A stretch of DNA of 64,000 bases from assembly GCF_004365915.1 (NCBI RefSeq), contig NZ_SODI01000001.1:3286001-3350000 (forward strand). Reading direction: 5' to 3'. Source of the stretch: Cryobacterium psychrophilum (GTDB lineage Bacteria > Actinomycetota > Actinomycetes > Actinomycetales > Microbacteriaceae). The position numbers and the translations under genes are program-made. The notes under the pieces are model-generated. The model had not been told where the DNA came from. It did not search any database and saw only the letters and a list, made by a program, of their open reading frames with translations. This document shows positions 31,326 through 53,743 of the stretch, piece by piece (position 1 is the first letter of the stretch; each line of letters starts with the position of its first letter).

Positions 31326-31397
31326 GGGCGATTGGCGCAGCGGTAGCGCGCTTCCCTGACACGGAAGAGGTCACTGGTTCGATCCCAGTATCGCCCA
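31326..31397 (+). tRNA. tRNA-Val (GAC), integration target of the mobile element
   Basis: 72-nt cloverleaf. Acceptor GGGCGAT pairs with ATCGCCC, with discriminator A. The anticodon loop CTGACAC gives GAC (valine). Its last 25 nt are inside the 27-bp sequence repeated at 53717-53743, so the element integrated here and left a complete tRNA gene at attL. Confidence 0.95.
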
Positions 31398-31399
31398 CA
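31373..31399. repeat. attL core (27 bp, within tRNA-Val)
   Basis: Begins ACTGGTTCGATCCC at 31373 and ends CGCCCACA at 31399; identical over 27 bp to 53717-53743. It covers the T-arm and 3' acceptor of the tRNA and 2 nt beyond. Confidence 0.93.
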
Positions 31400-31906: not shown

Positions 31907-31988
31907 TAGCCCGGCCTCTCTCGCGCCCCGGCAAAAAAGAACGCCCGACGTGTCGCGCGTTCGTGATCCCTTAAGGAACCAAATTCAC

Positions 31989-32633
31989 ATGGTCAAGGTA
32001 GCAAAATCAGTACCAAAAGGTCCCCGTCGCCCCCGTCGCTTCTCTGTGGTGTCGAACTTCATCCGCCGAATCGACATCGAGACGGCCTTCGACCGCCCCA
32101 ACGTCGTACGCTATGCCGGCTGCGTACACGACAAGGACTTTGAGACGGCGACTCATGGGCACGCATTCGCCGAGTTCAAGGACGGACGCACGGTCGACCA
32201 GGTCAAGGACTTCTTCGACAAGCCCGTCATCGTCACACCTCTCGTCGGTAAGAGCGGTGACACGACCTCGTTTGCCCGGGCCGTGCGATATCTCACGCAT
32301 GAACATCAGAGCCAGCAGGCCCTCGGCAAATACCATTACCCAGACACGGATGTGTTCGTCTCCGAAGGCTTCGACTGGCGCACCGAAGTGAACGCGCTGA
32401 CGGCGCGGGAAAACAACACCGCTAGGCCCAACGTGCGCCAGATCCGGCTCGACGTAATGCATGGCCGAATGACCGCGCGGGATGTGCGCGAGCGCCACCC
32501 GGATGTGTACTTGGACCGCGGCCCCGAGCTCCGTCGTCTCGAAGAAGACTTCCACGAATACTGCCGCGCGAGGCTGCAAGAGCAACACCTCCTCGAAGCG
32601 GCGGCCGGCCTTCCCATTACTGTCCTCTCCTGA
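31989..32633 (+). CDS. Rolling-circle replication initiator (Rep_2-like HUH protein)
   Basis: 214 residues from the ATG at 31989, which has AAGGAAC upstream. Pattern of pMV158-type Rep proteins: a metal-binding HUH motif in ATHGHAFAEFKDGRTVDQVKDF, then AVRYLTHEHQSQQALGKYHY with the presumed nicking Tyr. In such proteins this Tyr nicks the double-strand origin and stays attached to the 5' end. Its presence shows the excised circle can probably replicate, as in integrative plasmids. The C-terminal part has a possible helix-turn-helix (HGRMTARDVRERHPDVY). Confidence 0.78.
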   Translation: MVKVAKSVPKGPRRPRRFSVVSNFIRRIDIETAFDRPNVVRYAGCVHDKDFETATHGHAFAEFKDGRTVDQVKDFFDKPVIVTPLVGKSGDTTSFARAVRYLTHEHQSQQALGKYHYPDTDVFVSEGFDWRTEVNALTARENNTARPNVRQIRLDVMHGRMTARDVRERHPDVYLDRGPELRRLEEDFHEYCRARLQEQHLLEAAAGLPITVLS

Positions 32634-32698: not shown

Positions 32699-33016
32699 AT
32701 GAGCACCATCGAAGAAGAGATTGCAGCGGTCAAGCATGCTGCGCAGAAGAAGCTCAGCCGCCTGCGCGAGCGTGAACGGAAAGTGCAGCTAGCACTCGAC
32801 CTGCGAGTCGTCGCATTACTGCGGGAGAAGAACCCGAACGCTTACGAGACGGTGCGCGTCGAGGCCCGGGCGCAGCTCAATGCCGAGGCGGCCAGGCGAG
32901 CTGAGCGTGCTCGCCGGCTGCCGCGTTCGCCTACTGATGCTCAGCAGGCTGAGTTGATCGGTAGCGACGATGCCCGTGTTCGCATCACCGAGCACGGCGT
33001 CGTGGGCGCGCAGTGA
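32699..33016 (+). CDS. Small coiled-coil protein, mobilization region
   Basis: 105 residues, highly charged and mostly helical. A probable coiled coil runs from about residue 3 to 75 (EEEIAAVKHAAQKKLSRLRERERKVQLALDLR). No family recognised. It lies between rep and mobC on the same strand, where actinobacterial plasmids often carry small accessory DNA-processing proteins. Any mobilization role is inferred from position. Confidence 0.6.
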   Translation: MSTIEEEIAAVKHAAQKKLSRLRERERKVQLALDLRVVALLREKNPNAYETVRVEARAQLNAEAARRAERARRLPRSPTDAQQAELIGSDDARVRITEHGVVGAQ

Positions 33017-33044
33017 TGGGCGGTCAGCGCATCGCGCGCGGCGA

Positions 33045-33173
33045 GTGCTCGGGTGCGTCAGCACCCGAGCACGATGCCGTGCCTCGGGTTTGGGGATCGA
33101 AGGGGAAGGGCGCAGCCCTGCCCCTCGCAAGCGGCATCCTGTCGGACGAGCGCAGCGATGTCCGACAGGATGC
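33045..33173. other. Candidate origin of transfer (oriT): cluster of three hairpins
   Basis: Three successive inverted repeats in the 214-nt gap before mobC. First: 12-bp perfect arms 33045-33056 and 33061-33072, GTCA loop. Second: 10-bp arms 33102-33111 and 33115-33124 with one mismatch. Third: 14-bp perfect arms 33134-33147 and 33160-33173. Hairpins immediately upstream of mobC and relaxase genes are typical of oriT regions. Confidence 0.55.
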
Positions 33174-33230
33174 CTGCTTGCCTTCTCTGGAAACAACCAC
33201 TTTCAGTCCTGCGTCATTGGGGGTGTCACC

Positions 33231-33644
33231 ATGAGCGGTGGAGCTGCGAGGCAACGAGCGCCGGTGTCACGTCACCAGCGTATCGACACGCGGTTTAGCG
33301 ACGCTGAACTCGCGTTGGTCGAGCGAGTAGCTGGACGCCGGGGGATCGCCCCCTCGGCGTTCGTGCGAGGCGCGGCCTGCGCCGCGGCGAGCACGATGGA
33401 GGGGCGTGCCCCCGACGACCAAAAGGCGTCAGCGACGGCGAAGCCGTCGCTGACGCCCGAGCAGGTCGCTGTCATCGACGCGACGCGCATCGAAGTAAAA
33501 CGGGCAGGCGTCAACTTGAACCAACTGATGCGTGCTTCGCACCAGGGCGTCCTCGACCTCGGGGCACTCGCCCCGGTGGTCGAGGCGCTGGCTGAGCAGG
33601 TCGGGCGGGCCATCGAAGTGTTTGGAGGGAAGGGGCAGCCATGA
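33231..33644 (+). CDS. MobC-like mobilization accessory protein
   Basis: 137 residues from ATG 33231. The N-terminal ribbon-helix-helix-like part (SRHQRIDTRFSDAELALVERVAG, RGIAPSAFVRGAAC) is of the MobC/relaxosome type. The C-terminal part has RIEVKRAGVNLNQLMRASH, a motif common in MobC families (the GxNLNQL pattern). It should help the relaxase melt or recognise oriT. The stop overlaps the relaxase start by 4 nt. A perfect 15-bp hairpin is embedded in its coding sequence at 33425-33457. Confidence 0.8.
   Translation: MSGGAARQRAPVSRHQRIDTRFSDAELALVERVAGRRGIAPSAFVRGAACAAASTMEGRAPDDQKASATAKPSLTPEQVAVIDATRIEVKRAGVNLNQLMRASHQGVLDLGALAPVVEALAEQVGRAIEVFGGKGQP
33425..33457. repeat. Perfect hairpin inside the mobC coding sequence
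   Basis: 15-bp perfect arms (33425-33439 and 33443-33457) around GAA, in frame inside the gene and encoding the stretch SATAKPSLT between its two domains. Confidence 0.85.
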
Positions 33645-35161
33645 GCGTTACAGATGTAAAGCCTGACTACGACCTCGGCACGAGTGCTGACTACCTCGTC
33701 TTCGGTGTCGGCGCGAAGAAAAGGAAGCACACCGCCGCAGGCTCAAACCGCATCGTGCCAGGCTTCTATTGCGACGCTCCGTGCGTCGAGGCGTTCGTGG
33801 CATTGGGTGACGAGCTCGCCAAACAGAACAGCCGAAAGGTGAAAGCGCAAAGCTACGTGCTGTCGTTCTCGCCCGAGGAGTTCGATGTGGATAGCCCCGC
33901 TGATCTTCAACGAGTCGGCGACGCGGGATTCTTGCTCGCGAAGAAGATGCATCCGAACTCCGCGTGTCTCGTCGTCGTACACGCCGATGGCAAGGGTCGT
34001 GCAGCGCACGCGCACATCAAGGTACTGAACCACGACACTGCGACCGGCATGGCCCTACGTGATTTCCGCGTGCACTGGCGGGTGAAGAAGGCCAACGATG
34101 AGCTGATGCGAGACCTTGGCATGCAGGTAGTTGAAGCGAAACCAAAGCAACCCACGGACGCCTGGGTCACCAGGCGAAACGAACTGCCCCAGTACGAGCA
34201 GCAGCTCGGCGATGTGTGTGCTGAAGCAAAGTTCGAGGCGCTGGCCGCGACATTGGCCGCCCCCTCGCCCAGCATGGCAAGGTTTACAGCGCGGTTCACA
34301 GCGGCATGTCAGGCTCGAGGCGTCGAGCTGGTCACCGATGAGTACAAGGTCAAGAGCGGCAATCGTGGGGGCAAGCAAGAGGGCGCTACCGTGGTGGGCT
34401 TCACCTTCAAGATGCGGGACGACACGACGCCGAAGCGCCGTATCCGCAGGCGCAAAGCCTCGGCACTGTCGTCCGAGTTCACACACGACGCGATCACCGC
34501 CGCATTCGACGCGAAGCAAATGCAGCCGCAGGAAGGCGTGCCCGCCCAAGTTCCTGTGCGCCGGCAGCCCAAGCGCCCCCGCATGGCGCAGCAGAAAACC
34601 GCAGCCACGATTTCCGGTGGCATGGCTCCGGCTCCGGCTCCGGCTCAGGCTGAGTCGGAAGCGCGGCAGTCCGCTGCTGCAGTGAAGCCGGCAAACTCGT
34701 GGAAGGAGCAGATGCAGGCAGCGCTTGAAGAAGCCAACGCGCAGGGTAACGCCGAGAGCAACCGGATGATCACGGAGTACCTCCGGGAGAAGGAGGCGGT
34801 GGCGGCTACCAAGTGCGAGCAGCATGCTCAGCAGGCAGAAGCAGCTCTCCAGTCAGAACCCGCGCACCGGCCGCAGAGAAACCCGCCGTTGGAGGGTCTC
34901 CGGAAGCTCGACGAGGAGACCCTAGAAGCCGCAGCGAGCGCCCATGAGCCAGAGCAAACTCCTGAGGAGGCGGCGGAGCCGGAGACGATCAACGAGGCCG
35001 AAACCATCTTCGAGCGGGGCCACAGTCCTTCTCCGTGGACGGACAGTGAGAACCCGTATCTGACTAAGAATCGGAAGAGAATGCAGCGCATCCGTGCGGA
35101 ACTTGCCGACGCGGACGATGAGACTTTTGAGAGCGCCGACACCAGGACACCAGGCGATTAG
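33641..35161 (+). CDS. Relaxase / mobilization nuclease
   Basis: 506 residues. The N-terminal relaxase core (about residues 1-170) has SYVLSFSPEEFDVDSP, with a helix near GDAGFLLAKKMHPNSACLVVVHADGKG, and an HUH-type metal motif in GRAAHAHIKVLNHD. The likely catalytic Tyr is near the N-terminus (SADYLVFGVG). The C-terminal half is Ala/Glu-rich and probably coiled or disordered. It would nick oriT and pilot the strand into a recipient using another element's secretion system. Coupled by ATGA overlap to mobC. Confidence 0.8.
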   Translation: MSVTDVKPDYDLGTSADYLVFGVGAKKRKHTAAGSNRIVPGFYCDAPCVEAFVALGDELAKQNSRKVKAQSYVLSFSPEEFDVDSPADLQRVGDAGFLLAKKMHPNSACLVVVHADGKGRAAHAHIKVLNHDTATGMALRDFRVHWRVKKANDELMRDLGMQVVEAKPKQPTDAWVTRRNELPQYEQQLGDVCAEAKFEALAATLAAPSPSMARFTARFTAACQARGVELVTDEYKVKSGNRGGKQEGATVVGFTFKMRDDTTPKRRIRRRKASALSSEFTHDAITAAFDAKQMQPQEGVPAQVPVRRQPKRPRMAQQKTAATISGGMAPAPAPAQAESEARQSAAAVKPANSWKEQMQAALEEANAQGNAESNRMITEYLREKEAVAATKCEQHAQQAEAALQSEPAHRPQRNPPLEGLRKLDEETLEAAASAHEPEQTPEEAAEPETINEAETIFERGHSPSPWTDSENPYLTKNRKRMQRIRAELADADDETFESADTRTPGD

Positions 35162-35851: not shown

Positions 35852-36820
35852 GTGAGCCCCCGGACCAGCTTGCTCGCGTTCCAGGCTGAAAAGGACCTCG
35901 AGAACTACCTGCTGGTCCATCTATCGCTGCTCCTGTCGGATCTGGGACAGGGCCTCTTGATTATCGGAAAACAGGTAGCGACGGCTTTCGATCGTCGTAT
36001 CGATCTTCTCGCGATCGATGCGACAGGGGCCATCCACGTCATCGAACTGAAGCTGGGCGGGACTACCCCTCAGATCGTCAGCCAAATCACCGACTACCTT
36101 TACTGGATCCGGAAACTCAGTAGGGACGATATCATTCGCGTCGTCGCTCAAAATCGGCTGGGCATAAACTTAAAGGTTGCTTTCCAGGAGCGCTTTGGTC
36201 ACCCGCTACCAGCGGCAGTCAACGAGGCGCAGGTTCTCACGATCGTCGCGGCGTCCATCGACCTCAAAACTCAACGCAGTATCCTGGCAATCCGGAATCC
36301 TGGACTTTCGACCACAATGTTCCGCTACGTCGTCCAGTCCGGCGCCGTCAGCCTCATCCCGTGCTGTCTTGATGGTCAGGACGTGGAGGCCTCTCAGGCC
36401 GAGACGATACCCCAGGCTCTCCGAAAACATTCGACGGCGCCGGTGTCGCTTGGGCCACCGACCTACAGGGTGCTCATTCACGACAGCGTCCGAGAGTTCT
36501 GGCTGACCCACGCTCATCTTTTCGCCTCGCCCATCGTGACCTTTGAATTCGTCTTCAAGGAGTATGAGAAATGGGTCCGCGCGCAAGTGACCGAAGGCAG
36601 GCAGCCAACCTCCGACCAGATGGGGCTATTTGGTCGGGAGCTGTTTGCGCTCACCGGGGAGTCCGGAGAGTGGACCCGAGTTTATTTTCCTCCTGGGATC
36701 GATGTGAACACCCTCGCGACCTTGACAAACCTGCCGTTAACTCGGACAGTCATCGGGGGAGTCAATTACCGTGCTGTGGCATACCGGAGAAATCCGGACT
36801 ACCAAGCATCTGCAGCTTAA
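35852..36820 (+). CDS. DUF91/NucS-like PD-(D/E)XK endonuclease
   Basis: 322 residues. The nuclease core lies near the N-terminus: FDRRIDLLAIDATGAIHVIELKLGG gives Asp51, Glu65 and Lys67 of a PD-(D/E)XK site, followed by QIVSQITDYLYWIRKL, as in the NucS/DUF91 catalytic domain. The C-terminal 200 residues are not recognised and may bind DNA or sense something. NucS proper has its own N-terminal domain, so this is a different architecture. GTG start behind GGAGGG. As cargo on the element, a DNA-degrading defence role is plausible but unproven. Confidence 0.7.
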   Translation: MSPRTSLLAFQAEKDLENYLLVHLSLLLSDLGQGLLIIGKQVATAFDRRIDLLAIDATGAIHVIELKLGGTTPQIVSQITDYLYWIRKLSRDDIIRVVAQNRLGINLKVAFQERFGHPLPAAVNEAQVLTIVAASIDLKTQRSILAIRNPGLSTTMFRYVVQSGAVSLIPCCLDGQDVEASQAETIPQALRKHSTAPVSLGPPTYRVLIHDSVREFWLTHAHLFASPIVTFEFVFKEYEKWVRAQVTEGRQPTSDQMGLFGRELFALTGESGEWTRVYFPPGIDVNTLATLTNLPLTRTVIGGVNYRAVAYRRNPDYQASAA

Positions 36821-36925: not shown

Positions 36926-37447
36926 CTACTTCAAACTAAGCGTTGCCATTACCTCTGCTGCCAGCTCTCCCTTCAGATAGGGGCGGGGAAGGTTAAATAC
37001 GCGCGCACCCCATGACGTCATTTCACTCTGGTAGCCAGGCTGTGCTTTCTTTCCTGATAGCGCATGGACGGGCGGGGCATAGATTGCGAGAGCAGCCATC
37101 TTCGCTTCGAACTGCGCCCTGCCGTGCTCAACCTCGCTTTTGGGCAGGTCAGCTGCGCTTGGGGTCGGCCGTCGGACAAGGTCCGCAAATCCGACGCCTG
37201 CCTCAGGAGCAGTTCGCTCTAAATGTCGATCGCCATCACTGAGCGTCATCAGGCCGACTTTGACCAGCATCATGATGCGACCGCGCGCGCCTTGGCCCTG
37301 ATAGTAGTGACCTGCCGTGACGCTCGTCAGCGAGGGATTGATCCCCACTATCACTGCCCGCGGCCGAGGAGGCCAGACTTCGGCCAGCGTGAGCACCTCA
37401 GCGCCCATCCATTCGACGCGCTCCTGATACCCAATGAGGTCGGTCAT
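36926..37447 (-). CDS. Uracil-DNA glycosylase family (MUG-like) protein
   Basis: 173 residues. RPRAVIVGINPSLTSVTAGHYYQGQG is the GINP motif of the mismatch-specific glycosylase branch, followed by GVGFADLVRRPTPSAADLPKSE and a C-terminal VFNLPRPY block in place of the usual NPSG motif. Such enzymes remove uracil or damaged bases; some defence and anti-defence systems use this fold. It is encoded opposite to the DUF91-like nuclease, convergent with a 105-nt gap. Confidence 0.75.
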   Translation of the reverse strand: MTDLIGYQERVEWMGAEVLTLAEVWPPRPRAVIVGINPSLTSVTAGHYYQGQGARGRIMMLVKVGLMTLSDGDRHLERTAPEAGVGFADLVRRPTPSAADLPKSEVEHGRAQFEAKMAALAIYAPPVHALSGKKAQPGYQSEMTSWGARVFNLPRPYLKGELAAEVMATLSLK

Positions 37448-41921: not shown

Positions 41922-42560
41922 CTACGGGTGCTGGACTGTCGTCGAGAGTGCCGTCGGGCTTAGCGTCGGGAGTTCACCGATCAGGACCTCGCTGTCGTTG
42001 AGCCACAGATCGACAAGCGCATCACCGCGTCCGGCGGATTCCGCGAGGCCACCCACGGTGATCTGGATCACCTGTGCCGGGTTGCCAGTCCAGAGCTCCA
42101 CGCGTCGCCCCAACTCGTCGACGAAGTCCTCGCGGAGACTCGCGGGTATCTCGTCCGGGTACACGACCAGCAGGTCGACGTCGGAGTCGGCTGTGGCTTC
42201 ACCTCGTTCGACCGACCCATACAGCACGACAGCGGTTCCGTTCGGGGCGCTCTCGTTGGCAAGATCGCGGATGCGCTGACGGAACTCAGTCAAAGCGTTA
42301 AGCGCCGACTCCACGGTCGACCAGAGCAGGTGCTCCCGATTCACACGGTAGAGCGTCTCCGCCTGCCGGGATGCTGCCAGCACGAGCCCGACCCGAGTCA
42401 AACGCTCCAAGGCTCCCCGCACGCCTCTGATGCTCACCGTTCCGCCGAGGAGACGTTCGATCTGGCGACCGTTTACCGACGCCGACCCGCGCGCGAGGGC
42501 AGTCAGGACTGCGCCCTCGGTTCGACCGAAGACAGTGACAAGCGGCATCCCGAGATTCAT
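41922..42560 (-). CDS. MNT-type nucleotidyltransferase with winged-helix N-terminus
   Basis: 212 residues from ATG 42560 (GGAGG at the right distance; the TTG further upstream overlaps that site). The N-terminal winged helix (FGRTEGAVLTALARGSASVN to LTRVGLVLA) is followed by a minimal nucleotidyltransferase: VVLYGSVERGEATADSDVDLLVVYPD, the GSxxRG...DxD signature. MNT proteins often neutralise HEPN toxins, but no HEPN gene is adjacent. The HTH may repress its own promoter, which carries a small inverted repeat. Confidence 0.75.
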   Translation of the reverse strand: MNLGMPLVTVFGRTEGAVLTALARGSASVNGRQIERLLGGTVSIRGVRGALERLTRVGLVLAASRQAETLYRVNREHLLWSTVESALNALTEFRQRIRDLANESAPNGTAVVLYGSVERGEATADSDVDLLVVYPDEIPASLREDFVDELGRRVELWTGNPAQVIQITVGGLAESAGRGDALVDLWLNDSEVLIGELPTLSPTALSTTVQHP

Positions 42561-42582
42561 TGAGTCCTCCAAGTAGGCTGTG

Positions 42583-42769: not shown

Positions 42770-43174
42770 TTACTCCGCGACATATTCCTGGCGAACAGAT
42801 CCGTCTGTGGCGAGTTCGATGTGCCTGAAATCGCGGTCGGAGTTCAAGACCACAGCATCGTTGGCAACGGCGTATGCAGCGATATGACAGTCAAAGGCTC
42901 CCGCGGCGCGCATCAGCCCGCTCTCCCACATGGCCTGCTGAATATCGAGCGCGTCTTTCTCAGTCGGGTGCTCCCACGCCGCCAGCAGCGTCTCCATGTC
43001 TTCTCGCAGCTCGGCGTACTCATCGCGCGATCGCGCGGAATGGCAGTACTCCAGGACCTGCGGCGGGCAGGTGATGATCAGATGATTCGGCGTAATCTCT
43101 CTGAGTCGCTGCGCAATGGCGGTGCTGCGACCGGCCTTCTGCCAGATGCTGTTGTCGACCAGGTACGTCGTCAC
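42770..43174 (-). CDS. vapC: PIN-domain ribonuclease toxin VapC
   Basis: 134 residues. PIN-domain acidic residues: Asp in TTYLVDNSIWQKAG, Glu in PPQVLEYCHSA, Asp in GAFDCHIAAYAVAND and Asp in LNSDRDFRHIE. It should be a Mg-dependent RNase cutting tRNA or rRNA. The start overlaps the stop of the antitoxin gene by 4 nt, the standard vapBC order. Likely an addiction module that stabilises the element. Confidence 0.9.
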   Translation of the reverse strand: MTTYLVDNSIWQKAGRSTAIAQRLREITPNHLIITCPPQVLEYCHSARSRDEYAELREDMETLLAAWEHPTEKDALDIQQAMWESGLMRAAGAFDCHIAAYAVANDAVVLNSDRDFRHIELATDGSVRQEYVAE

Positions 43175-43392
43175 AGCTCGTCGCTGACGGCCAGCGGCGT
43201 GATGGTGGGAGCATCAATCTGGTCCGGCTCGAAGCGACGGCCGATGATGCGCTCGACGGCAGAGGGCTGCCGGCGCACGGCGATCAGGGTCCGGAGCGCA
43301 AGATCAACCGTCTCGCGATTGGAGGAGGTTCCGGCCAGCAGTTTGGCCTGCTTGAGCTCGGCCTGGTTTATGTCGATTGACGTGATGGCCAT
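43171..43392 (-). CDS. vapB: Antitoxin VapB
   Basis: 73 residues from ATG 43392 behind GGAGG. The N-terminal ribbon-helix-helix has MAITSIDINQAELKQAKLLA and SSNRETVDLALRTLI. The C-terminal toxin-binding tail is RRFEPDQIDAPTITP. It precedes and overlaps vapC. A decayed second copy of its 3' part lies at 45114-45176, about 81% identical. The 43393-43670 gap upstream should hold the promoter; no operator was recognised. Confidence 0.88.
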   Translation of the reverse strand: MAITSIDINQAELKQAKLLAGTSSNRETVDLALRTLIAVRRQPSAVERIIGRRFEPDQIDAPTITPLAVSDEL

Positions 43393-43670
43393 GGCGCCTC
43401 CTTCTTGCTTTATATAAGTAAGTATATAAGAACAGCGCGAAGCCGTCCAGCGGGTGAGGGCGGGGATGTCGCTGATATCCGGCGGCGGCGGATAATAGAC
43501 AGACGCTCTGGGACCTGGCACACAGCACACGAGACGCGGCTGAATCAACGCCGGCCCGCGTGGAAGCAGCGAGCAGCCTGGCAGCGATCGAGCAGCTTCG
43601 TGGCGAGATCCCGGCTGATCACCTGGTGCTGTTCGTCCGCCGAGCTCGTCAGTAGGAAGCAGGTCAGTCA

Positions 43671-44418
43671 ATGACTACCGAGAAGCTGAATCAGGTTGAG
43701 CCGGACCAAGGGAACGAGTTCGTGCCCCGACCGTTCAGCCTCACACCGGACGAGCTCGGTGATCTCGCCGTGACCGTGGCGAAGATACCTACTTCAGTGC
43801 TGGCATGGGTGCGATACCCAGCGATCGCCGTCCGCGTGCAGGGACTCGCTGTGGCCTGGACATCTCGTGCCGTCTACATCGTGTGGGAGGACCGAGGCAC
43901 TCATCGAGCGTGGGTATGGGCGTCCGCTGTCGAGCGCGCGGCTGCTGGTGGCCCTCCGGCTGGTCCTAGTAGTAATAGTAATATTCCTACTACTACTACT
44001 CCCGCTGGTCTTGCTCCTGCCTCGGTCGCTGCGGCGGGTCTTACCGCTGGCCCAACATCAGCCTCAGACACCCGAGACGACCGCTCTCGGCACAGCGCCG
44101 CTGGTGCACCTCGTCAACGCACAGCTCGCTCTTTTCGGTGCAGAGTTTGTGAGCGCGATGGCCAAGCCAGCTGGTCCGTTTGGCGCGGTCGCGTTCGGCT
44201 CGATTGATGGCCACCGCGTGCGCCTGGACTTCCACGTCGAACCGGCGACGGGCATGTGCATTGTGCTGATGGCGAGGACTGCGCTGACGACGAGCACTGT
44301 GCTGATGGCAAACACAGAGGCGGAAGACTTGGCCGAGCGAAGCAGCGCTTCGACGTTTGAAGAAGCCATCGAGGCGTACCCGTGGGCCGCGGCACTTGAG
44401 ACACTGGAGCTGGATTAG
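43671..44418 (+). pseudogene. Probable frameshifted gene of unknown function
   Basis: The N-terminal part in the first frame (to about 43950) looks genuine: NEFVPRPFSLTPDELGDLAV, RVQGLAVAWTSRAVYIVWED. From about 44100 the coding signal moves to the next frame: LFGAEFVSAMAKPAGPFGAV, then IDGHRVRLDFHVEPATG and a C-terminal TFEEAIEAYPWAAALETLEL. Between them lies a trinucleotide-rich stretch (43965-44000, AGT/AAT then ACT repeats). A single frameshift in the linker would join both parts into one protein of about 245 residues. Alternatively the second frame starts at 43867 as its own protein with a hydrophobic segment encoded by the repeats. No family recognised. Confidence 0.5.
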
Positions 44419-45933: not shown

Positions 45934-48630
45934 GTGAGGCTCAACCTCAAGGCGGTCGAAGAACGCGTCGCGCCCATGGGCAATCGGGAGTTCTACGACC
46001 GTGAGTTCATTTTCGAGTTGCTCCTCGGCTACGGCCGTTCGCAGAGCAACATCACACGGCTCCGAAATGGCTCCCTAAACGTCGCCGAGAACAAGACGCA
46101 CGACGTGGTTCAGAAGAACGTCGTCTACTTCCGTGAAACCACAGGTGACCCGCTCGCTGTCATCGACAGCCTTCGCACCTCAGCGACCGTGGTCCGGCAC
46201 AACACCCGGTTCGTGATCGTCACCGACTACAACGAGCTGCTCGCCGTCGACACCAAGACGGGTGAGAACCTGATGATCCCGATCCGGGACATCGGCAAGC
46301 ACTTCACTTTCTTTCTCCCCTGGGCCGGTATGGAAAAGGCCCAGTACGTCGCCGAGGCTCACGCCGACGTCAAGGCTGCCGAGCGGATGGGCAAACTCTT
46401 TGACGAGCTGCTCGCAGCCAACCCCGACCTGATTGAGGCACCGAACGGCCGCCACGCCCTCAACGTGTTCTTCACCAGGCTGCTGTTCTGCTTCTTCGCC
46501 GAAGACACAGGGATCTTCACCGAGAGCCAGTTCACCAACGCGGTCGGTTCCCACACCCAGGCCGATGGCTCAGACGTCGCGGAGTTCCTGACCGCTGTCT
46601 TCACCGCGCTCGACACGCCGCAGTCGGCTGACAAGCCCGCTCACCTTGCAGGGTTTCCATACGTCAACGGACGACTCTTCACCATGGCCCCGGAGCACGT
46701 GGTCCCCGCGTTTACGAAGAAGGCCCGCGACCAGCTCATCGAGTCCGGCAAACTGATCTGGCGTGAGATCAACCCCGATATCTTCGGGTCGATGTTCCAA
46801 GCCATCGTTACCCCCGGCAAGCGCTCTGACCTAGGTCAGCATTACACCTCGGTGCCAAACATCCTCAAGACGATTGAGCCCCTTTTCCTCAACCGACTTC
46901 GGGACGAGTTCGACTCTGCGTTTGGCAATGCGAAGAAGCTCAGCGCGCTGCTCGAACGGATCAGCGCGATCAAGGTCTTCGACCCTGCATGTGGATCGGG
47001 GAACTTCCTTGTGATCGCTTACAAGGAGCTTCGCCGTTTGGAGCACGCGATCCTGGAGCGCTTGTTCGAGATCGACTCGAAGCATCAGGTCCTGTACGCC
47101 GAGTCAAGAATCAATATCGAGAACTCCTACGGGATCGAGATCGACGACTTCGCCGTTGAGGTGGCGATCCTCTCACTCTGGATCGCCAAGCACCAAATGA
47201 ATACCGAGTTCAAGGAGAAATTTAATGTTTCCATCCCACTCATACCTCTGAATGAGACCGGCCAGATCAAGACGGGCAACGCCACTCGCGTCGACTGGAA
47301 TCAGATCTGCCCCAACAAAGGGACGGAGGAGATCTATCTCATCGGAAATCCTCCGTACTACGGATCAACAAGGCAGTCGACTCCCCAGAAAGCGGACTTC
47401 GGGTTCGTATTCGGAACACGTCCGTACTCCAAGAACCTCAATTACATCGCCCTCTGGTTTGTCAAAGGCGCTGAATACATCGCGCGCAGTCAAGCTGAGC
47501 TCGCATTCGTAACTACAAGGACTGTGTCACAGGGAGAACACGTTGCGCTCATGTTTCCTCAAATATTCAATCTGGATCTGGAGATCGGCTTTGCCTATAC
47601 CGGGTTCCAATGGGACAACAACGCAAAGGGAAATGCCGATGTCACCGTCGCCGTGATCGGCTTGCGAAGAGCGGGAGAGCGCCAGAAATTCCTCTTCACG
47701 GATGATCTTCAGATCGCGGCGTCAAATATCAATGGCTATCTCGCGGACGGCAAGAACATCTACGTTCATTCGCGCTCGAAGCCGCTTTCGGCGCTGCCCC
47801 CCATGGAAAAGGGTTCACAACCAACCGACGGCGGCAACTTGGTTCTTGAGCCTCACGACCGGGATGCAATCCTCGATGAGGATCCGCAGGCCGCTCATTT
47901 CCTCAAGACCTTTCTTGGCTCTCTGGAGTTTATCAACGGGTTAGACCGGTACTGCGTGTGGGTGGCCCCAGGCGAAGAGGAGTTAGCCCTAAGTATCGTG
48001 CCACTGCAGCATCGTTTCGAAAAAACGTCGGAAATGCGCAGGGCAAGCCCGAAGTCCGCCACCCAGAAGATCTCATCAATGCCGTTCCGCTTTGGTGAGG
48101 TCCGCTACAAGCCTACGGAATCGATTATTGTCCCCGCTGCGTCTTCGGGGCTTCGCGACTACATTCCTGTCGGGTATCTGGGGCCGGACACTGTGATTTC
48201 TAATGCCGCGTTCGCTGCATACGATGCTGCGCCCTGGGTATTTGCGATCATCACCTCTAAAGCACACATGACATGGGTGCGGGCCGTCGCTGGAAGAATG
48301 CGAATCAACTACCGTTACTCCAACACAATCGTCTACAACAACTTCCCGATTCCTCCGTTGGGCGACGCGATGAAGGAGCGGCTTACCGTTGCCGCACTGC
48401 GAGTACTCGACGTGCGCGAGTATCACTGTGAGAAGACCCTCGCCGAGTTGTACGACCCGAACCTCATGCCCGCAGATCTGCGTGCCGCGCACGCTGAGAT
48501 CGACGCACTGGTTGACTCGCTCTACTCCAGGCGCGGGTACGAGACAGACGAGCAGCGACTGTCGGACCTCTTCGCCATGTATGAAAAGATGACCGCGGAC
48601 GAAGCAGCCAATGGGGGCAAGACGAAATGA
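45934..48630 (+). CDS. MmeI/YeeA-type N6-adenine DNA methyltransferase of a restriction-like operon
   Basis: 898 residues from the GTG at 45934 (AAGAAAGAG upstream); a TTG 36 nt earlier is possible. Motif I is DPACGSGNF (350-358) and the catalytic motif IV is NPPY (472-475), marking an adenine-N6 enzyme. The N-terminal 150 residues (FYDREFIFELLLGYGRSQSN, RFVIVTDYNELLAVDTKTG) carry no MmeI-like nuclease motif. Target-recognition and helical regions follow (GFQWDNNAKGNADVTV, MRINYRYSNTIVYNNFP). As I recall, Bacillus subtilis YeeA has the same layout. It overlaps the helicase gene by 4 nt. Confidence 0.85.
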   Translation: MRLNLKAVEERVAPMGNREFYDREFIFELLLGYGRSQSNITRLRNGSLNVAENKTHDVVQKNVVYFRETTGDPLAVIDSLRTSATVVRHNTRFVIVTDYNELLAVDTKTGENLMIPIRDIGKHFTFFLPWAGMEKAQYVAEAHADVKAAERMGKLFDELLAANPDLIEAPNGRHALNVFFTRLLFCFFAEDTGIFTESQFTNAVGSHTQADGSDVAEFLTAVFTALDTPQSADKPAHLAGFPYVNGRLFTMAPEHVVPAFTKKARDQLIESGKLIWREINPDIFGSMFQAIVTPGKRSDLGQHYTSVPNILKTIEPLFLNRLRDEFDSAFGNAKKLSALLERISAIKVFDPACGSGNFLVIAYKELRRLEHAILERLFEIDSKHQVLYAESRINIENSYGIEIDDFAVEVAILSLWIAKHQMNTEFKEKFNVSIPLIPLNETGQIKTGNATRVDWNQICPNKGTEEIYLIGNPPYYGSTRQSTPQKADFGFVFGTRPYSKNLNYIALWFVKGAEYIARSQAELAFVTTRTVSQGEHVALMFPQIFNLDLEIGFAYTGFQWDNNAKGNADVTVAVIGLRRAGERQKFLFTDDLQIAASNINGYLADGKNIYVHSRSKPLSALPPMEKGSQPTDGGNLVLEPHDRDAILDEDPQAAHFLKTFLGSLEFINGLDRYCVWVAPGEEELALSIVPLQHRFEKTSEMRRASPKSATQKISSMPFRFGEVRYKPTESIIVPAASSGLRDYIPVGYLGPDTVISNAAFAAYDAAPWVFAIITSKAHMTWVRAVAGRMRINYRYSNTIVYNNFPIPPLGDAMKERLTVAALRVLDVREYHCEKTLAELYDPNLMPADLRAAHAEIDALVDSLYSRRGYETDEQRLSDLFAMYEKMTADEAANGGKTK

Positions 48631-50597
48631 ACCAACCACTCAACGTCGTTGACGTGACGTACGCCCGAACGGGCGCATCTGTGCACACCGACGCAATGGG
48701 AATGCGCGAGATGCAGCAGCGCGTCTTCGCCAAGCGCGATGCTCAGCATCTCCTGATCAAAGCGCCTCCGGCGTCGGGTAAGTCTCGTGCGCTCATGTTC
48801 GTTGCGCTCGACAAGCTCTACAATCAGGGCCGCAAGAAGGTCATCGTTGCAGTCCCCGAACGCTCGATCGGTGCGTCGTTCGCCGCGACGAACCTGACCG
48901 ATCGCGGGTTCTTCGCCGACTGGGAGATCAAGCCTGAGCACAACCTCTGCACACCCGGTTCGTCGGCGGGCAAAGTAGCAGCGTTTATCAAGTTTCTTGA
49001 GGGCCCCGACGCGGCGTTGGTCTGCACGCACGCCACCTTGAGGTTCGCGTTTGAGAGACTCGCTCCTGACGTATTCAACGGCACCGTGCTTGCGATCGAC
49101 GAGTTTCACCACGTATCCGCCGACATCGAGGCCAACCGGCTGGGAGCCTTGCTCCGTGACGTCATGAACGGCTCCGACGTGCACATCGTTGCAATGACCG
49201 GCTCCTACTTCCGCGGTGATTCGGTGCCCGTGCTGACTGCGGACGACGAGGCGCAGTTTACGCCGGTCACGTTTAACTACTACGACCAACTCAACGGCTA
49301 CGAGCACCTCAAGTCCTTGGGTATCGGTCACCATTTCTACCAAGGGCGTTACACCGATGCCATTGGCGAAGTCCTAGATCTCGACAAGAAGACCATCCTG
49401 CACATCCCTAACGTGAACTCGGGGGAGTCGACCAAGGACAAGATCGAGGAGGTCGGGTTCATCATCGATTCGATGGGTGACTACATCGAGACTGAAGAAA
49501 CTGGCATTATTCGCATCCGCCGCAAGGACACCGGTCAGATTCTGCGGGTCGCGGACCTGGTCAACGACGCGGACCAGCGGAAGCGAGCGGAGACGCAGCA
49601 CTATCTCTCCACCGTCGCTTCGAAGGACCGGGACGGAGTCGACATCATCATCGCGCTCGGCATGGCAAAGGAAGGTTTTGACTGGCCATTCGCCGAGCAC
49701 GCCCTGACCGTCGGCTATCGGGCCTCTTTGACCGAGGTAATCCAGATCATCGGCCGGGTCACCAGGGACAGCCCAGGCAAGCAACACGCTCAGTTCACAA
49801 ACCTCATCGCCCAACCCGACGCGGCCACCGACGAGGTTAAGTACTCGGTCAACAACATACTCAAAGCGATTACAGCGTCGCTCCTGATGGAACAGGTCCT
49901 GGCCCCAAACTTTACGTTCAAGACCAAGACCGGCAACGACGACGCCCCCAAACCTGGCGAGTTGCGGATCAAGGGTTTCAAAGAGCCTTCGACCGACCGG
50001 GTGAAGCAAATCGTGAAGACCGACCTCAACGACCTCAAGGCCACCATCCTCCAGGACGACACCTTCGCAAAGGCTGCTGCGGGAAGCCTCGACCCCGAGG
50101 TGACCAATAAGGTACTGATTCCGAAAATAATCCGCGAACGGTATCCCGATCTCGACGAAGCGCAGGTCGAGGAAGTGCGTCAGCAGGTCGTTGTGGACTC
50201 CGTTATCAAGAACGGCGAAATGCGCGAGGTCGGCGACAAGCGGTTCATCAGGATGGCGGACAAGTTCGTCAACATCGACGAGATCGACATCAACCTCATT
50301 GACTCCGTCAACCCGTTCCAGCGGGCCTTCGAGGTCATGAGCAAGTCGGTGACGCCGAGTGTGCTGCGCATCATCTCCGATGCCATCACTGCTACGCGGG
50401 TCGAGATCAGCGAAGAAGAAGCCCGGGTTCTGTGGCCGAAGATCCAGGTTTGGGCGAAGGTCAACGGCCGTAAGCCCGACGTCCGGAGTGATAACCCGAT
50501 GGAGAAACGCTATGCCGAAGCAATCCTGTTCCTCCAGAGGCTGAAGCAGCGGCATCAGGCTGCGAAACGAGCGATATTGGTGGGTAACGAGGCATGA
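48627..50597 (+). CDS. DEAD/DEAH-like superfamily 2 helicase of the same operon
   Basis: 656 residues. Walker A APPASGKS (46-53), Walker B with DEFH in place of DEAH (158-161), motif III MTGSY (190-194), and motif VI QIIGRVTR (373-380) in a second RecA domain (GMAKEGFDWPFAEHALTVGY). A C-terminal 180-residue region ends LWPKIQVWAKVNGRKPD, reminiscent of helicase-associated repeats also seen in the next protein. It probably translocates on or remodels DNA using ATP to activate the nuclease. Four-nt overlaps link it to both neighbours. It corresponds in position to YeeB of B. subtilis, from memory. Confidence 0.85.
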   Translation: MNQPLNVVDVTYARTGASVHTDAMGMREMQQRVFAKRDAQHLLIKAPPASGKSRALMFVALDKLYNQGRKKVIVAVPERSIGASFAATNLTDRGFFADWEIKPEHNLCTPGSSAGKVAAFIKFLEGPDAALVCTHATLRFAFERLAPDVFNGTVLAIDEFHHVSADIEANRLGALLRDVMNGSDVHIVAMTGSYFRGDSVPVLTADDEAQFTPVTFNYYDQLNGYEHLKSLGIGHHFYQGRYTDAIGEVLDLDKKTILHIPNVNSGESTKDKIEEVGFIIDSMGDYIETEETGIIRIRRKDTGQILRVADLVNDADQRKRAETQHYLSTVASKDRDGVDIIIALGMAKEGFDWPFAEHALTVGYRASLTEVIQIIGRVTRDSPGKQHAQFTNLIAQPDAATDEVKYSVNNILKAITASLLMEQVLAPNFTFKTKTGNDDAPKPGELRIKGFKEPSTDRVKQIVKTDLNDLKATILQDDTFAKAAAGSLDPEVTNKVLIPKIIRERYPDLDEAQVEEVRQQVVVDSVIKNGEMREVGDKRFIRMADKFVNIDEIDINLIDSVNPFQRAFEVMSKSVTPSVLRIISDAITATRVEISEEEARVLWPKIQVWAKVNGRKPDVRSDNPMEKRYAEAILFLQRLKQRHQAAKRAILVGNEA

Positions 50598-51796
50598 CCA
50601 CAACCGAGACCGAAAACCGCAAGAGTCATCCACCTGCTCCAGGGGCGGACTTACAGTGGCTCATCGATTCCGACGTCGACGGGCTTCTGGACATGGCGGA
50701 GAAGCCCAAGAAGGTCACGTCCAGTGACCGCCTGGAGCGGGCGTTCCTGGAGGTCGTGGAGTTCCGTCGCACCCACGACCGGGTGCCCAGCTCGACAACC
50801 CGGGAGATCGCCGAACGCAAGCTCGGCGCTCGGCTGGATGGCATTCTTGCTGACGAAGCGAAGACCACCGCGCTGAAGCACCTAGACGAGTTCGGGCTCT
50901 TGGAGATCGCCCAGACACCCGCTTCGATCGACGATCTACTCGGCAGCGACGATCTTGATCTTCTCGGCGATGACTCGGGTTTGTTGGATGTTTCGGACCT
51001 ACCGCAGCGTAAGGCGCCGGAAGCACCGGACTCGATCGCGAAGCGGACGAAGGCCGAAGGTTTCGAGGCATTCGAGCCGTTGTTCAAGGCTAAGCACGAG
51101 GAATTAGCAGACGGCACGTACCGGTTGATCCCGTTCCCCGGTGTGCGCAGCATCGAAGGGGGCAACTTCTTCGTGCTTAACGGCGTGATGCTCTTCGTCG
51201 CCGAGGTCGGGGAGACAACCTTCACGGTCGTGGGCGGCAAGCAGGAGCAAAAGCAGCGTCTACGCGTGATCTTCGAGAACGGCACCGAGTCCTCGATGTA
51301 CCGCCAGTCGCTTTCGATTCGGCTCCACGAGGCCGACGGACAGGCTTTGGCACGTGCGGGTCACGACCTCACTGAAGTGGGTGATGCCGACAAGGAGAGC
51401 GGCCACATCTACGTGCTTCGCTCGCGCAGCGACAACCCCCAGATCGCTGCGATGCAAGACCTCTACAAGATCGGGTTCTCTCGGAACAGTGTCGAGAAAC
51501 GGATCGCGAACGCGGCCAACGCGCCGACCTATCTCATGGCGCCGGTCGACATCGTCGCGGACTACCGGACCTACAACCTCAAGCCCTCCGCCCTGGAGCA
51601 TCTCTTACACCGCGCGTTCGCTGAGGTCCGCCTTGACGTCACCCAGATTGACACGAAGGGTCGCAAATACGACCCATCGGAGTGGTTCGTCGTACCGCTG
51701 AAGGTGATCAACCAAGCGATCAACATGATCATGTCCGGCGAGATCGTTGACTACGTGTACAGCGCAACGTCGCAACAGCTCGTGCAGCGTGACTGA
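50594..51796 (+). CDS. GIY-YIG nuclease (T5orf172-like), presumed restriction effector
   Basis: 400 residues. The C-terminal GIY-YIG domain has HIYVL (271-275, the GIY strand), YKIGFS (291-296, the YIG strand), Arg303 in VEKRIANA and Glu335 in ALEHLLHRAF, the expected catalytic set. The N-terminal region (RAFLEVVEFRRTHDRVPSST) looks like a helicase-associated helical repeat. An acidic linker near residues 113-135 separates the two. Third gene of the operon, starting within the helicase stop. It would cut unmodified DNA while the methyltransferase protects host sites. Confidence 0.85.
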   Translation: MTTTETENRKSHPPAPGADLQWLIDSDVDGLLDMAEKPKKVTSSDRLERAFLEVVEFRRTHDRVPSSTTREIAERKLGARLDGILADEAKTTALKHLDEFGLLEIAQTPASIDDLLGSDDLDLLGDDSGLLDVSDLPQRKAPEAPDSIAKRTKAEGFEAFEPLFKAKHEELADGTYRLIPFPGVRSIEGGNFFVLNGVMLFVAEVGETTFTVVGGKQEQKQRLRVIFENGTESSMYRQSLSIRLHEADGQALARAGHDLTEVGDADKESGHIYVLRSRSDNPQIAAMQDLYKIGFSRNSVEKRIANAANAPTYLMAPVDIVADYRTYNLKPSALEHLLHRAFAEVRLDVTQIDTKGRKYDPSEWFVVPLKVINQAINMIMSGEIVDYVYSATSQQLVQRD

Positions 51797-52398: not shown

Positions 52399-53568
52399 CT
52401 AAGCGGTCGTGCGACGGCTCATGCGCGCTGCAAGTTCGTCGTCGCGGTTGCCGCTGTGCTGGTAACGCATCGCAGCCTTCTCGGAAGCATGGCCGAGGCG
52501 GGCCATCGTCTCCTTCACGGTCGCGCCGGCTTGGGCGTAACGAGTGCCGGCGTAGTGTCTAAGGCCATGGAACGGCAGGTCTTCCCGCCCGGCTGCAATG
52601 ACGGCCTTGTGCCAGTGTCGCCAGAAGGTGCTCTGACCGAGGTGACGAACGCCGTCAGCGGATGGAAAGAGCAAAGCATCGCCGATCTTGTCCCGCATGT
52701 GCTCGGCGATGATCTCGGCATCTTCGCCGAAGATCGCGAGAGTGCGCACGCCTGCCAGACTCTTGGTGCCGCCCACGGTCCTGCCGGCGCTCGTTTTCAC
52801 GACGGCCTCGGCGATGGTCAGCCGGACAGCCGAGACGGCGCCGCCCTCGCTGCGCTCGATCTTCACGTTCTTTGCGCGCAACTCGGTCGCCTCGCCGAAG
52901 CGGAGACCTCCGATAGCGGCGACGATGACGAGGGCACGGTACTCGGGTTTGATGCTCGTCAGGATGACCTCCAGCTCTTCGTCTGTCGGGGGTATTACCT
53001 TCTTACCGGTGTTCGTGCTCTGCCCGCCTTTGACCTGGCAAGGATTCACGTCGACGATGCCGTCTTGTACGGCGGTCGCCATGATCGAGTTCAACAGGCC
53101 GTACGCACGACTCGTTTGCGTCGCCTTGCCGGTCGCGAGTTGGCCAGCGCGCCACTGGCGCACTGTGGCCGGAGTGATGGCGCTGGCGGTGAGGGGGAGG
53201 AGGTCGGCGAGGGGCCCACCCTTGCTATTGGACCCCTTCGCTCCAGGCGACCGCAGCATCCGTTCGTACTCTTCGCGGGTGCGCGTGCGCAGCCGCTCGC
53301 CTTTGCTGTTCGTGCGGGTCGTGACCCACTTGCCGGCGTACTCGCCAAGCGTGACCGACCGCTCGGCCTGCTTCACGGCGGCTACGTCGGGATGTACCCA
53401 CTTGCCGGATGCGATCTCGACTTTGCGCTCGGCAAGCCAGTGGCGAGCCGCCCCCCGCGTCCTAAAGGTTGCAGGGGCCGAGTATCGCTTCCTGTCCGGT
53501 GCGGTGTATCTGGCGCGGAGGTTTCCACTTGGCAGGGTGTCGATGATTCCGAAGGACTCGCGAGCCAT
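52399..53568 (-). CDS. int: Tyrosine-type site-specific integrase
   Basis: 389 residues. The N-terminal arm-binding part (LRARYTAPDRKRYSAPATFR) and SAM-like core-binding domain (about residues 75-165) precede the catalytic domain. Catalytic residues: Arg in AAIGGLRFGEATEL, His-x-x-Arg in PFHGLRHYAGTRYA, His in ARLGHASEKAAM and the nucleophile Tyr in MRYQHS. It lies 149 nt from the attR core and is read inward. One of the candidate arm sites sits 15-32 nt upstream of its start, so binding could also regulate it. Confidence 0.95.
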   Translation of the reverse strand: MARESFGIIDTLPSGNLRARYTAPDRKRYSAPATFRTRGAARHWLAERKVEIASGKWVHPDVAAVKQAERSVTLGEYAGKWVTTRTNSKGERLRTRTREEYERMLRSPGAKGSNSKGGPLADLLPLTASAITPATVRQWRAGQLATGKATQTSRAYGLLNSIMATAVQDGIVDVNPCQVKGGQSTNTGKKVIPPTDEELEVILTSIKPEYRALVIVAAIGGLRFGEATELRAKNVKIERSEGGAVSAVRLTIAEAVVKTSAGRTVGGTKSLAGVRTLAIFGEDAEIIAEHMRDKIGDALLFPSADGVRHLGQSTFWRHWHKAVIAAGREDLPFHGLRHYAGTRYAQAGATVKETMARLGHASEKAAMRYQHSGNRDDELAARMSRRTTA

Positions 53569-53716: not shown

Positions 53717-53743
53717 ACTGGTTCGATCCCAGTATCGCCCACA
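53717..53743. repeat. attR core (27 bp copy of the tRNA-Val 3' end)
   Basis: Identical over 27 bp to 31373-31399. Only the tRNA 3' end is present here, so this copy is not a functional tRNA. Confidence 0.93.

Follow-up and report, generated by a model that had tools for sequence, protein, structure and literature searches.

Can a DNA methyltransferase of the MmeI type, having lost its own nuclease, still form part of a restriction system, and if so, together with which partners? This question is raised by three adjoining genes in a 64,000-nucleotide stretch of the Cryobacterium psychrophilum genome (contig NZ_SODI01000001.1, positions 3,286,001 to 3,350,000; hereafter the window, in whose numbering all coordinates are given). 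The three genes are the following, as defined by open reading frames (ORFs), Pfam searches and family alignments, with structural models in addition for the second and third:

45934..48630, + strand: MmeI-like N6-adenine DNA methyltransferase (MTase) with a fused target-recognition domain (TRD), in which the N-terminal PD-ExK motif is missing
48627..50597, + strand: superfamily 2 (SF2) helicase/translocase of the YeeB type, with the motifs APPASGKS, DEFH, TGS and QIIGRVTR and a conserved C-terminal part past the motor
50594..51796, + strand: GIY-YIG (T5orf172/MUG113) nuclease of the YeeC type

Our answer, to which we attach a probability of roughly 0.7, is that these genes encode an intact three-protein and probably ATP-dependent restriction-modification system, of the MmeI-MTase/translocase/GIY-YIG class represented by OspHL35III and by DnmA-YeeB-YeeC of Bacillus subtilis.

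The three genes form a single unit, with a 4-nucleotide overlap at each of the two junctions, and encode proteins of 898 (from GTG 45934), 656 and 400 amino acids, respectively. The mechanical ORF of the MTase begins at TTG 45898; we favor the GTG at 45934, the family-consistent start, because the N-termini of actinobacterial relatives begin at about the same residue. The MTase matches the Pfam models MmeI_N, MmeI_hel, MmeI_Mtase (317 bits), MmeI_TRD and MmeI_C, the helicase matches DEAD above the cut-off and ResIII and Helicase_C below theirs, and the third protein matches MUG113 and T5orf172, both of which we take to be members of the GIY-YIG superfamily. PADLOC, run on five proteins, classified the MTase as a type IIG enzyme (937 bits) and matched the other two proteins weakly, and NCBIfam gave an above-cut-off match for none of the three. 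An earlier note on this DNA, made from the sequence alone, had described the two overlaps, the three activities with their motifs, an MTase N-terminus without the nuclease of type IIL enzymes, and an intact GIY-YIG catalytic set; all of this is borne out by the + strand ORFs and their translations, by Pfam and the family alignments, by the absence of the PD-ExK triad at its alignment columns, and by the invariance of R303 and E335 described below. In its AlphaFold model (predicted local distance difference test score, pLDDT, 84), the GIY-YIG protein consists of a helical N-terminal part, a small beta-barrel at residues ~172–255 and a C-terminal GIY-YIG domain at ~268–390. The barrel bears a weak likeness to EF-P/CarD in this model, and may serve to bind DNA or protein.

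One line of evidence on our question is that the loss of the fused nuclease is coupled to the presence of the partner genes. The window MTase aligns with MmeI, a type IIL enzyme (PDB 5hr4), over residues 87–888 (570 bits), and the two proteins have the MTase, helical spacer, TRD and C-terminal domains in common. MmeI, however, has a PD-ExK triad (D70, E80 and K82) that the window MTase does not, such that cutting, if any, needs other proteins, and a type IIL enzyme with nuclease and MTase in one polypeptide is ruled out for the window. To follow this triad through the family, we scored it at the alignment columns of the three MmeI residues in two sets of MTases, one drawn by the helicase (described below), and a reciprocal one drawn by the MmeI_Mtase model (PF20473), blind to neighbors, from four phyla. 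For the latter, we scanned 396 genomes from the phylum to which the window belongs and 394 from its class, together with 398 from Pseudomonadota, 296 from Bacteroidota and 299 from Bacillota (the phylum labels being those of the loci used as centers); loci already found via the helicase (the window's own genome and G396–G398) were left out, and the resulting set comprises 84 regions plus 4 from Bacillota, 88 in total.

The helicase is present in 27 of these 88 regions (2/19 in the window's phylum, 21/30 in Pseudomonadota, 4/35 in Bacteroidota and 0/4 in Bacillota). The GIY-YIG gene accompanies it in 25 of the 27, the other two regions (L128 and L135) ending inside the helicase, and no family GIY-YIG gene was found without the helicase in any of the 88. 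After 13 of the 84 regions with MTase ORFs shorter than 800 amino acids had been dropped, 71 MTases of at least 800 amino acids remained for the motif count, and among these the triad is present in 0/24 MTases with the helicase vs 41/47 without it. The four Bacillota MTases, all without the helicase, carry the motif by inspection (4/4), giving 45/51 overall for MTases without the helicase. Correspondingly, the triad is absent from all 64 helicase-drawn MTases, including that of the window, and thus from 88/88 trio MTases overall, with one MTase locus (L114 and L013) being counted in both sets. A regular expression for PD-ExK performed more poorly than the alignment columns, matching 37/47 standalone and 2/88 trio MTases (chance matches, in L040 and L073). 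We note that loci, species and alignment rows share ancestry, and that values from Fisher tests on such counts are descriptive.

Six MTases lack both the triad and the helicase. Four of them (L109, L121, L122 and L124) adjoin a gene for a PLD-nuclease/SNF2-helicase, a fifth (L115), of the same MTase subtype, has no PLD/SNF2 neighbor among the two scanned, and the alignment row of the sixth (L186) is largely empty over the N-terminal region. With these exceptions, the MmeI scaffold either carries its own nuclease or adjoins separate motor and nuclease genes. As a separate observation, the MmeI-type MTase of one region (L119, 4988–10393, + strand) lies inside an open frame of 1801 amino acids, with the PD-ExK triad present.

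The association of the three genes is also conserved when approached from the helicase, using a genome scan from which we took the best 80 of 584 confirmed relatives, that is, the most similar ones. These loci come from Actinomycetota, Bacteroidota, Pseudomonadota, Campylobacterota, Bacillota, Planctomycetes, Chlamydiae, Saccharibacteria and others, including an archaeal metagenome-assembled genome (MAG) of Methanosarcinaceae, and in 39 aligned members the helicase is at least 60% identical to that of the window. The GIY-YIG gene lies directly 3′ of the helicase in 80/80 loci, with a spacing of −302 to +130 nucleotides (mechanical starts), and the MTase is present in 71/80, within 150 nucleotides of the helicase in 42 loci, at 150 bp or more in 28, and after the nuclease in one (L046). 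In the nine loci without an MTase, the contig stops 0–2.4 kb 5′ of the helicase, short of a whole MTase gene. Recurrence of the three genes across many phyla and an archaeal MAG rules out a chance association, and the group is large, with one search returning at least 8000 helicase relatives at E ≤ 1e-60. In the 28 loci with at least 150 bp between MTase and helicase (e.g., L032, L043, L044, L053, L066 and L067), the interval is mostly occupied by accessory ORFs, some of which resemble by eye Fic, RhuM-type or AlbA/ATP-binding regulators; the gap holds no clear extra gene in L078 and probably L006. Insertions may occur preferentially at this junction.

Within this family, the window trio appears to be an intact and well-preserved copy. 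The GIY-YIG residues Y273, K292, G294, R303, E335, H339 and W364 are identical in 69/69 alignment rows (Y291 of the "YKIG" motif is the same in 41/69 rows and otherwise H or F), and the GKS, DEFH and TGS motifs of the helicase, together with G376, R377 and R380, are identical in 78/78 rows. At family-conserved columns, the window copies show no gaps (0/294 in the helicase, 0/73 in the GIY-YIG protein and 0/232 in the MTase) and few substitutions (2, 1 and 6, respectively).

A further line of evidence comes from the recognition domain, which diverges far more than its partners do. Across the 12 loci with helicase identity >70% that are present in all three alignments, mean identity to the window is 82% for the helicase and 64% for the GIY-YIG protein, vs 77, 72, 51 and 79% for the N-domain, catalytic domain, recognition domain and C-domain of the MTase. 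Within the genus, a full-length family helicase is found in 5/57 Cryobacterium genomes, the window's own included, with two more weak partial matches. The four sister trios have helicases 82–95% identical to that of the window, and MTases whose N- and C-domains are 75–92% and 77–83% identical, with recognition domains at 39–60%. The putative specificity-residue sets, taken at the DNA-reading positions of MmeI, differ in all five trios. Together, these identities and residue sets amount to specificity switching of the restriction type. A shared motor and nuclease combined with many recognition domains fits restriction, and fits a conserved regulator less well.

The pairing of these residues follows a regular pattern. 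At position 6, the 61-row MTase alignment contains a K-D pair in 24 rows and an E-R pair in 24 rows, pairs that the MmeI code links to G:C and C:G (Callahan 2016), and the charges are opposite in 56/56 rows having two charged residues; at position 3, R or K is paired with D in 15/15 rows, D being absent from the other 46. For the window MTase, K626/Q629 suggest G at position 2, A758/R794 suggest a purine at position 4, and A is suggested at position 5, whereas A735/N757 (position 3) and R790/N792 (position 6) have no counterpart in the MmeI code as used here. As this reading is partial and weak, we claim no recognition motif.

Recognition and methylation are likewise tied to an SF2 motor and a nuclease in type I and type ISP enzymes, of which type I uses HsdS and the motor-nuclease HsdR, and type ISP a single polypeptide (nuclease-motor-MTase-TRD). 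The window trio differs from type I in having its recognition domain fused to the MTase, with no separate HsdS, and in a helicase in which Pfam finds no nuclease domain, and it differs from type ISP in being three ORFs with a separate GIY-YIG nuclease. The likeness of the trio to both is one of logic only.

Closer counterparts are found in the literature. The S4 figure legend of Blow et al. 2016 (PMC4752239) describes this very architecture, with OspHL35III as its prototype and no point of difference from the window in that description, and the B. subtilis locus dnmA-yeeB-yeeC, treated by Nye 2020 and Fernandez 2023 (PMC7261158 and PMC9973331), has the same three kinds of genes in the same order. 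In both cases, the likeness is one of description and not of compared sequences. The window has the features of this class, namely, an MmeI-like MTase with a fused recognition domain and no PD-ExK motif, a separate SF2 helicase gene, and a separate GIY-YIG gene with its catalytic set. The AchA6III type, also named by Blow et al. 2016, likewise has an MmeI-like MTase that lacks the nuclease motif and is accompanied by a motor and nuclease encoded apart from it, but there a single protein combines a PLD nuclease with an SNF2-type helicase; L109, L121, L122 and L124 fit this type. DnmA makes N6-methyladenine at GACGAG, an asymmetric site, on the 3′ adenine (Nye 2020), the synteny of dnmA-yeeB-yeeC is conserved (Fernandez 2023), and Morgan 2009 is credited with proposing a type I-like system for this type of locus (Nye 2020). 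The earlier note's view of a restriction system split into modification, motor and nuclease is therefore supported, as are the likeness to yeeA-yeeB-yeeC and the conserved co-occurrence in a group that it thought might be broad. Its label of a poorly described type has to be given up, with the architecture already in Blow et al. 2016 and a type I-like proposal attributed to Morgan 2009, and an exact match to a characterized system, which it had named as a possible refutation, exists for the architecture (OspHL35III) and was not found for the mechanism. The class is already known and widespread, with no description of how it cuts found in the open-licence literature.

How, then, might the three proteins work together? 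The MTase, which alone carries a recognition domain, would mark a single adenine per short asymmetric site, leaving the other strand unmarked, by analogy with MmeI and DnmA; MmeI-family enzymes reportedly protect by single-strand modification (Morgan 2009, by its title). The N-terminal domain of the MTase, which acts as the nuclease in MmeI, no longer has the triad and would probably serve as a docking platform for the partners. On unmarked DNA, the site-bound MTase would recruit the helicase, which would move along the DNA with ATP, and the GIY-YIG protein would make the cut, provided that two unmarked sites are present in opposite orientation. Type III and type ISP enzymes need two oppositely oriented sites for cutting. 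We propose such a rule here because, when only one strand is marked, replication yields a daughter duplex in which the site carries no mark at all, and a two-site requirement would be the simplest safeguard by which self-cutting is avoided. The complete scheme, in which an MTase with a dead nuclease domain acts as a gate bound to its site and, on unmarked DNA, loads the SF2 translocase, with cutting by the GIY-YIG protein only where complexes from two opposed unmarked sites meet, is tentative, and we hold it at somewhat short of even odds.

Several points weigh against reading the trio as an ATP-dependent restriction system. The two-site rule comes from logic, not data. The AlphaFold model of the helicase is mediocre (pLDDT 71), and while HsdR, the EcoR124I motor of type I, takes ranks 1–7 in Foldseek, the top 50 rows of a second aligner hold RIG-I-like, DEAD-box, Mfd and RadD structures and no HsdR; as the two aligners disagree, the model supports the common SF2 core only. 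In six of the nine loci without an MTase, the 1.2–2.4 kb available 5′ of the helicase contain not even a fragment of one, such that the MTase is not directly adjacent there, or absent. Single deletions of dnmA, yeeB and yeeC in B. subtilis gave no phenotype with three phages (Fernandez 2023), the dnmA deletion gave none in transformation, and the authors call the locus a relic (both Fernandez 2023 and Nye 2020). Finally, we found no report of biochemical cleavage or ATPase activity for this class in the open-licence literature searched. On the other side, deletions of dnmA and yeeB in Vibrio crassostreae raise sensitivity to some phages, as Fernandez 2023 states citing Piel.

We consider it unlikely that the trio provides defense without specific cleavage, with the MTase marking self and the helicase and GIY-YIG protein blocking replication or acting on phage intermediates, as in BREX or DISARM. 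Those systems also couple MTases with helicases, the weak PADLOC matches include DrmMI and PglX for the MTase and PbeA for the helicase, and phages of B. subtilis show no avoidance of the DnmA motif (Fernandez 2023). The invariant GIY-YIG catalytic set, however, points to DNA cutting, as does the replacement of a fused PD-ExK nuclease by motor and nuclease partners encoded separately, and none of the hallmark partners (DrmAB; PglZ, BrxC) was seen among the 18 proteins, part of the island introduced below, that were scanned with Pfam.

We regard as a little less probable again that the locus is a relic, with an MTase that still works, as an orphan regulator, and a helicase and nuclease that no longer function, as Fernandez 2023 and Nye 2020 conclude for dnmA. 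Fernandez 2023 reports missing stretches in the C-terminal domains of B. subtilis YeeB and YeeC, whereas the window copies miss no family-conserved column and keep all catalytic residues, and the pattern in the genus, with recognition domains diverging and helicases remaining >80% identical, is the opposite of motor and nuclease decay. Two merely adjoining units, a solitary MTase and an independent helicase-nuclease module (e.g., type IV-like, cutting modified DNA), are very improbable, as the halves may be separable (28/71 loci with other genes or at least 150 bp between them, and the MTase after the nuclease in L046) but the MTase-drawn sample contains neither a family GIY-YIG gene without the helicase nor a helicase-bearing locus with a PD-ExK MTase.

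The restriction system we propose lies on an island of 22.3 kb (31399–53743) in a tRNA-Val (gac) gene, which, judged by its gene content, looks like an integrative mobilizable element:

31326..31398, + strand: tRNA-Val (gac), island attachment gene
31373..31399, + strand: left attachment repeat, 27 nucleotides, at the 3′ end of tRNA-Val
31950..32633, + strand: plasmid-type replication initiator (Rep_OBD)
32970..33644, + strand: NikA-like mobilization protein (below the Pfam cut-off)
33641..35161, + strand: MobA/VirD2-like relaxase
35852–36820: YhcG-like nuclease (under the cut-off)
36926–37447, − strand: UDG-superfamily protein
41922–42572, − strand: nucleotidyltransferase
42770–43671, − strand: VapBC-like pair
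52399..53568, − strand: tyrosine-recombinase integrase
53717..53743, + strand: right attachment repeat, identical 27 nucleotides, just past the integrase gene

The spacing from tRNA-Val to thrS is 79–2890 bp in 16/16 Cryobacterium relatives vs 23.6 kb in the window, and we found no homology to 31440–53700 at this stretch in the 16 relatives except for one 45-bp match in L206, such that all 16 lack the island at this site. The island possibly carries a wider defense cargo. Relatives of the helicase also lie on 228 of 72,556 plasmid records (E ≤ 1e-50), 115 of them predicted to be conjugative, and on 2 of 50,697 phage records, both matches being fragmentary. On a 7,677-bp circle of Pediococcus pentosaceus (pP76, L210), the trio occurs with two transposase-like ORFs, and the listed ORFs include no evident replication gene; this may be an excised circle, a tiny plasmid or an assembly product, and in view of the last possibility we do not use it as proof that three genes suffice.

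If the proposed gate scheme is true, the class would represent a split, ATP-dependent form of restriction with interchangeable effectors, combining the logic of type III and type ISP enzymes with a GIY-YIG cutter, in which specificity would be swapped by exchanging the recognition domain alone. Annotation pipelines file the MTase of such trios as a type IIG/IIL enzyme, although it has no nuclease motif left and cutting would probably fall to the partners. The class is very widespread, and the functional tests found in the open-licence literature concern B. subtilis (no effect) and, as cited, Vibrio (an effect on phages). With one intact copy located on a mobilizable island of small size and four sisters of differing specificity, Cryobacterium would offer a convenient set in which to test whether and by what means cutting occurs.

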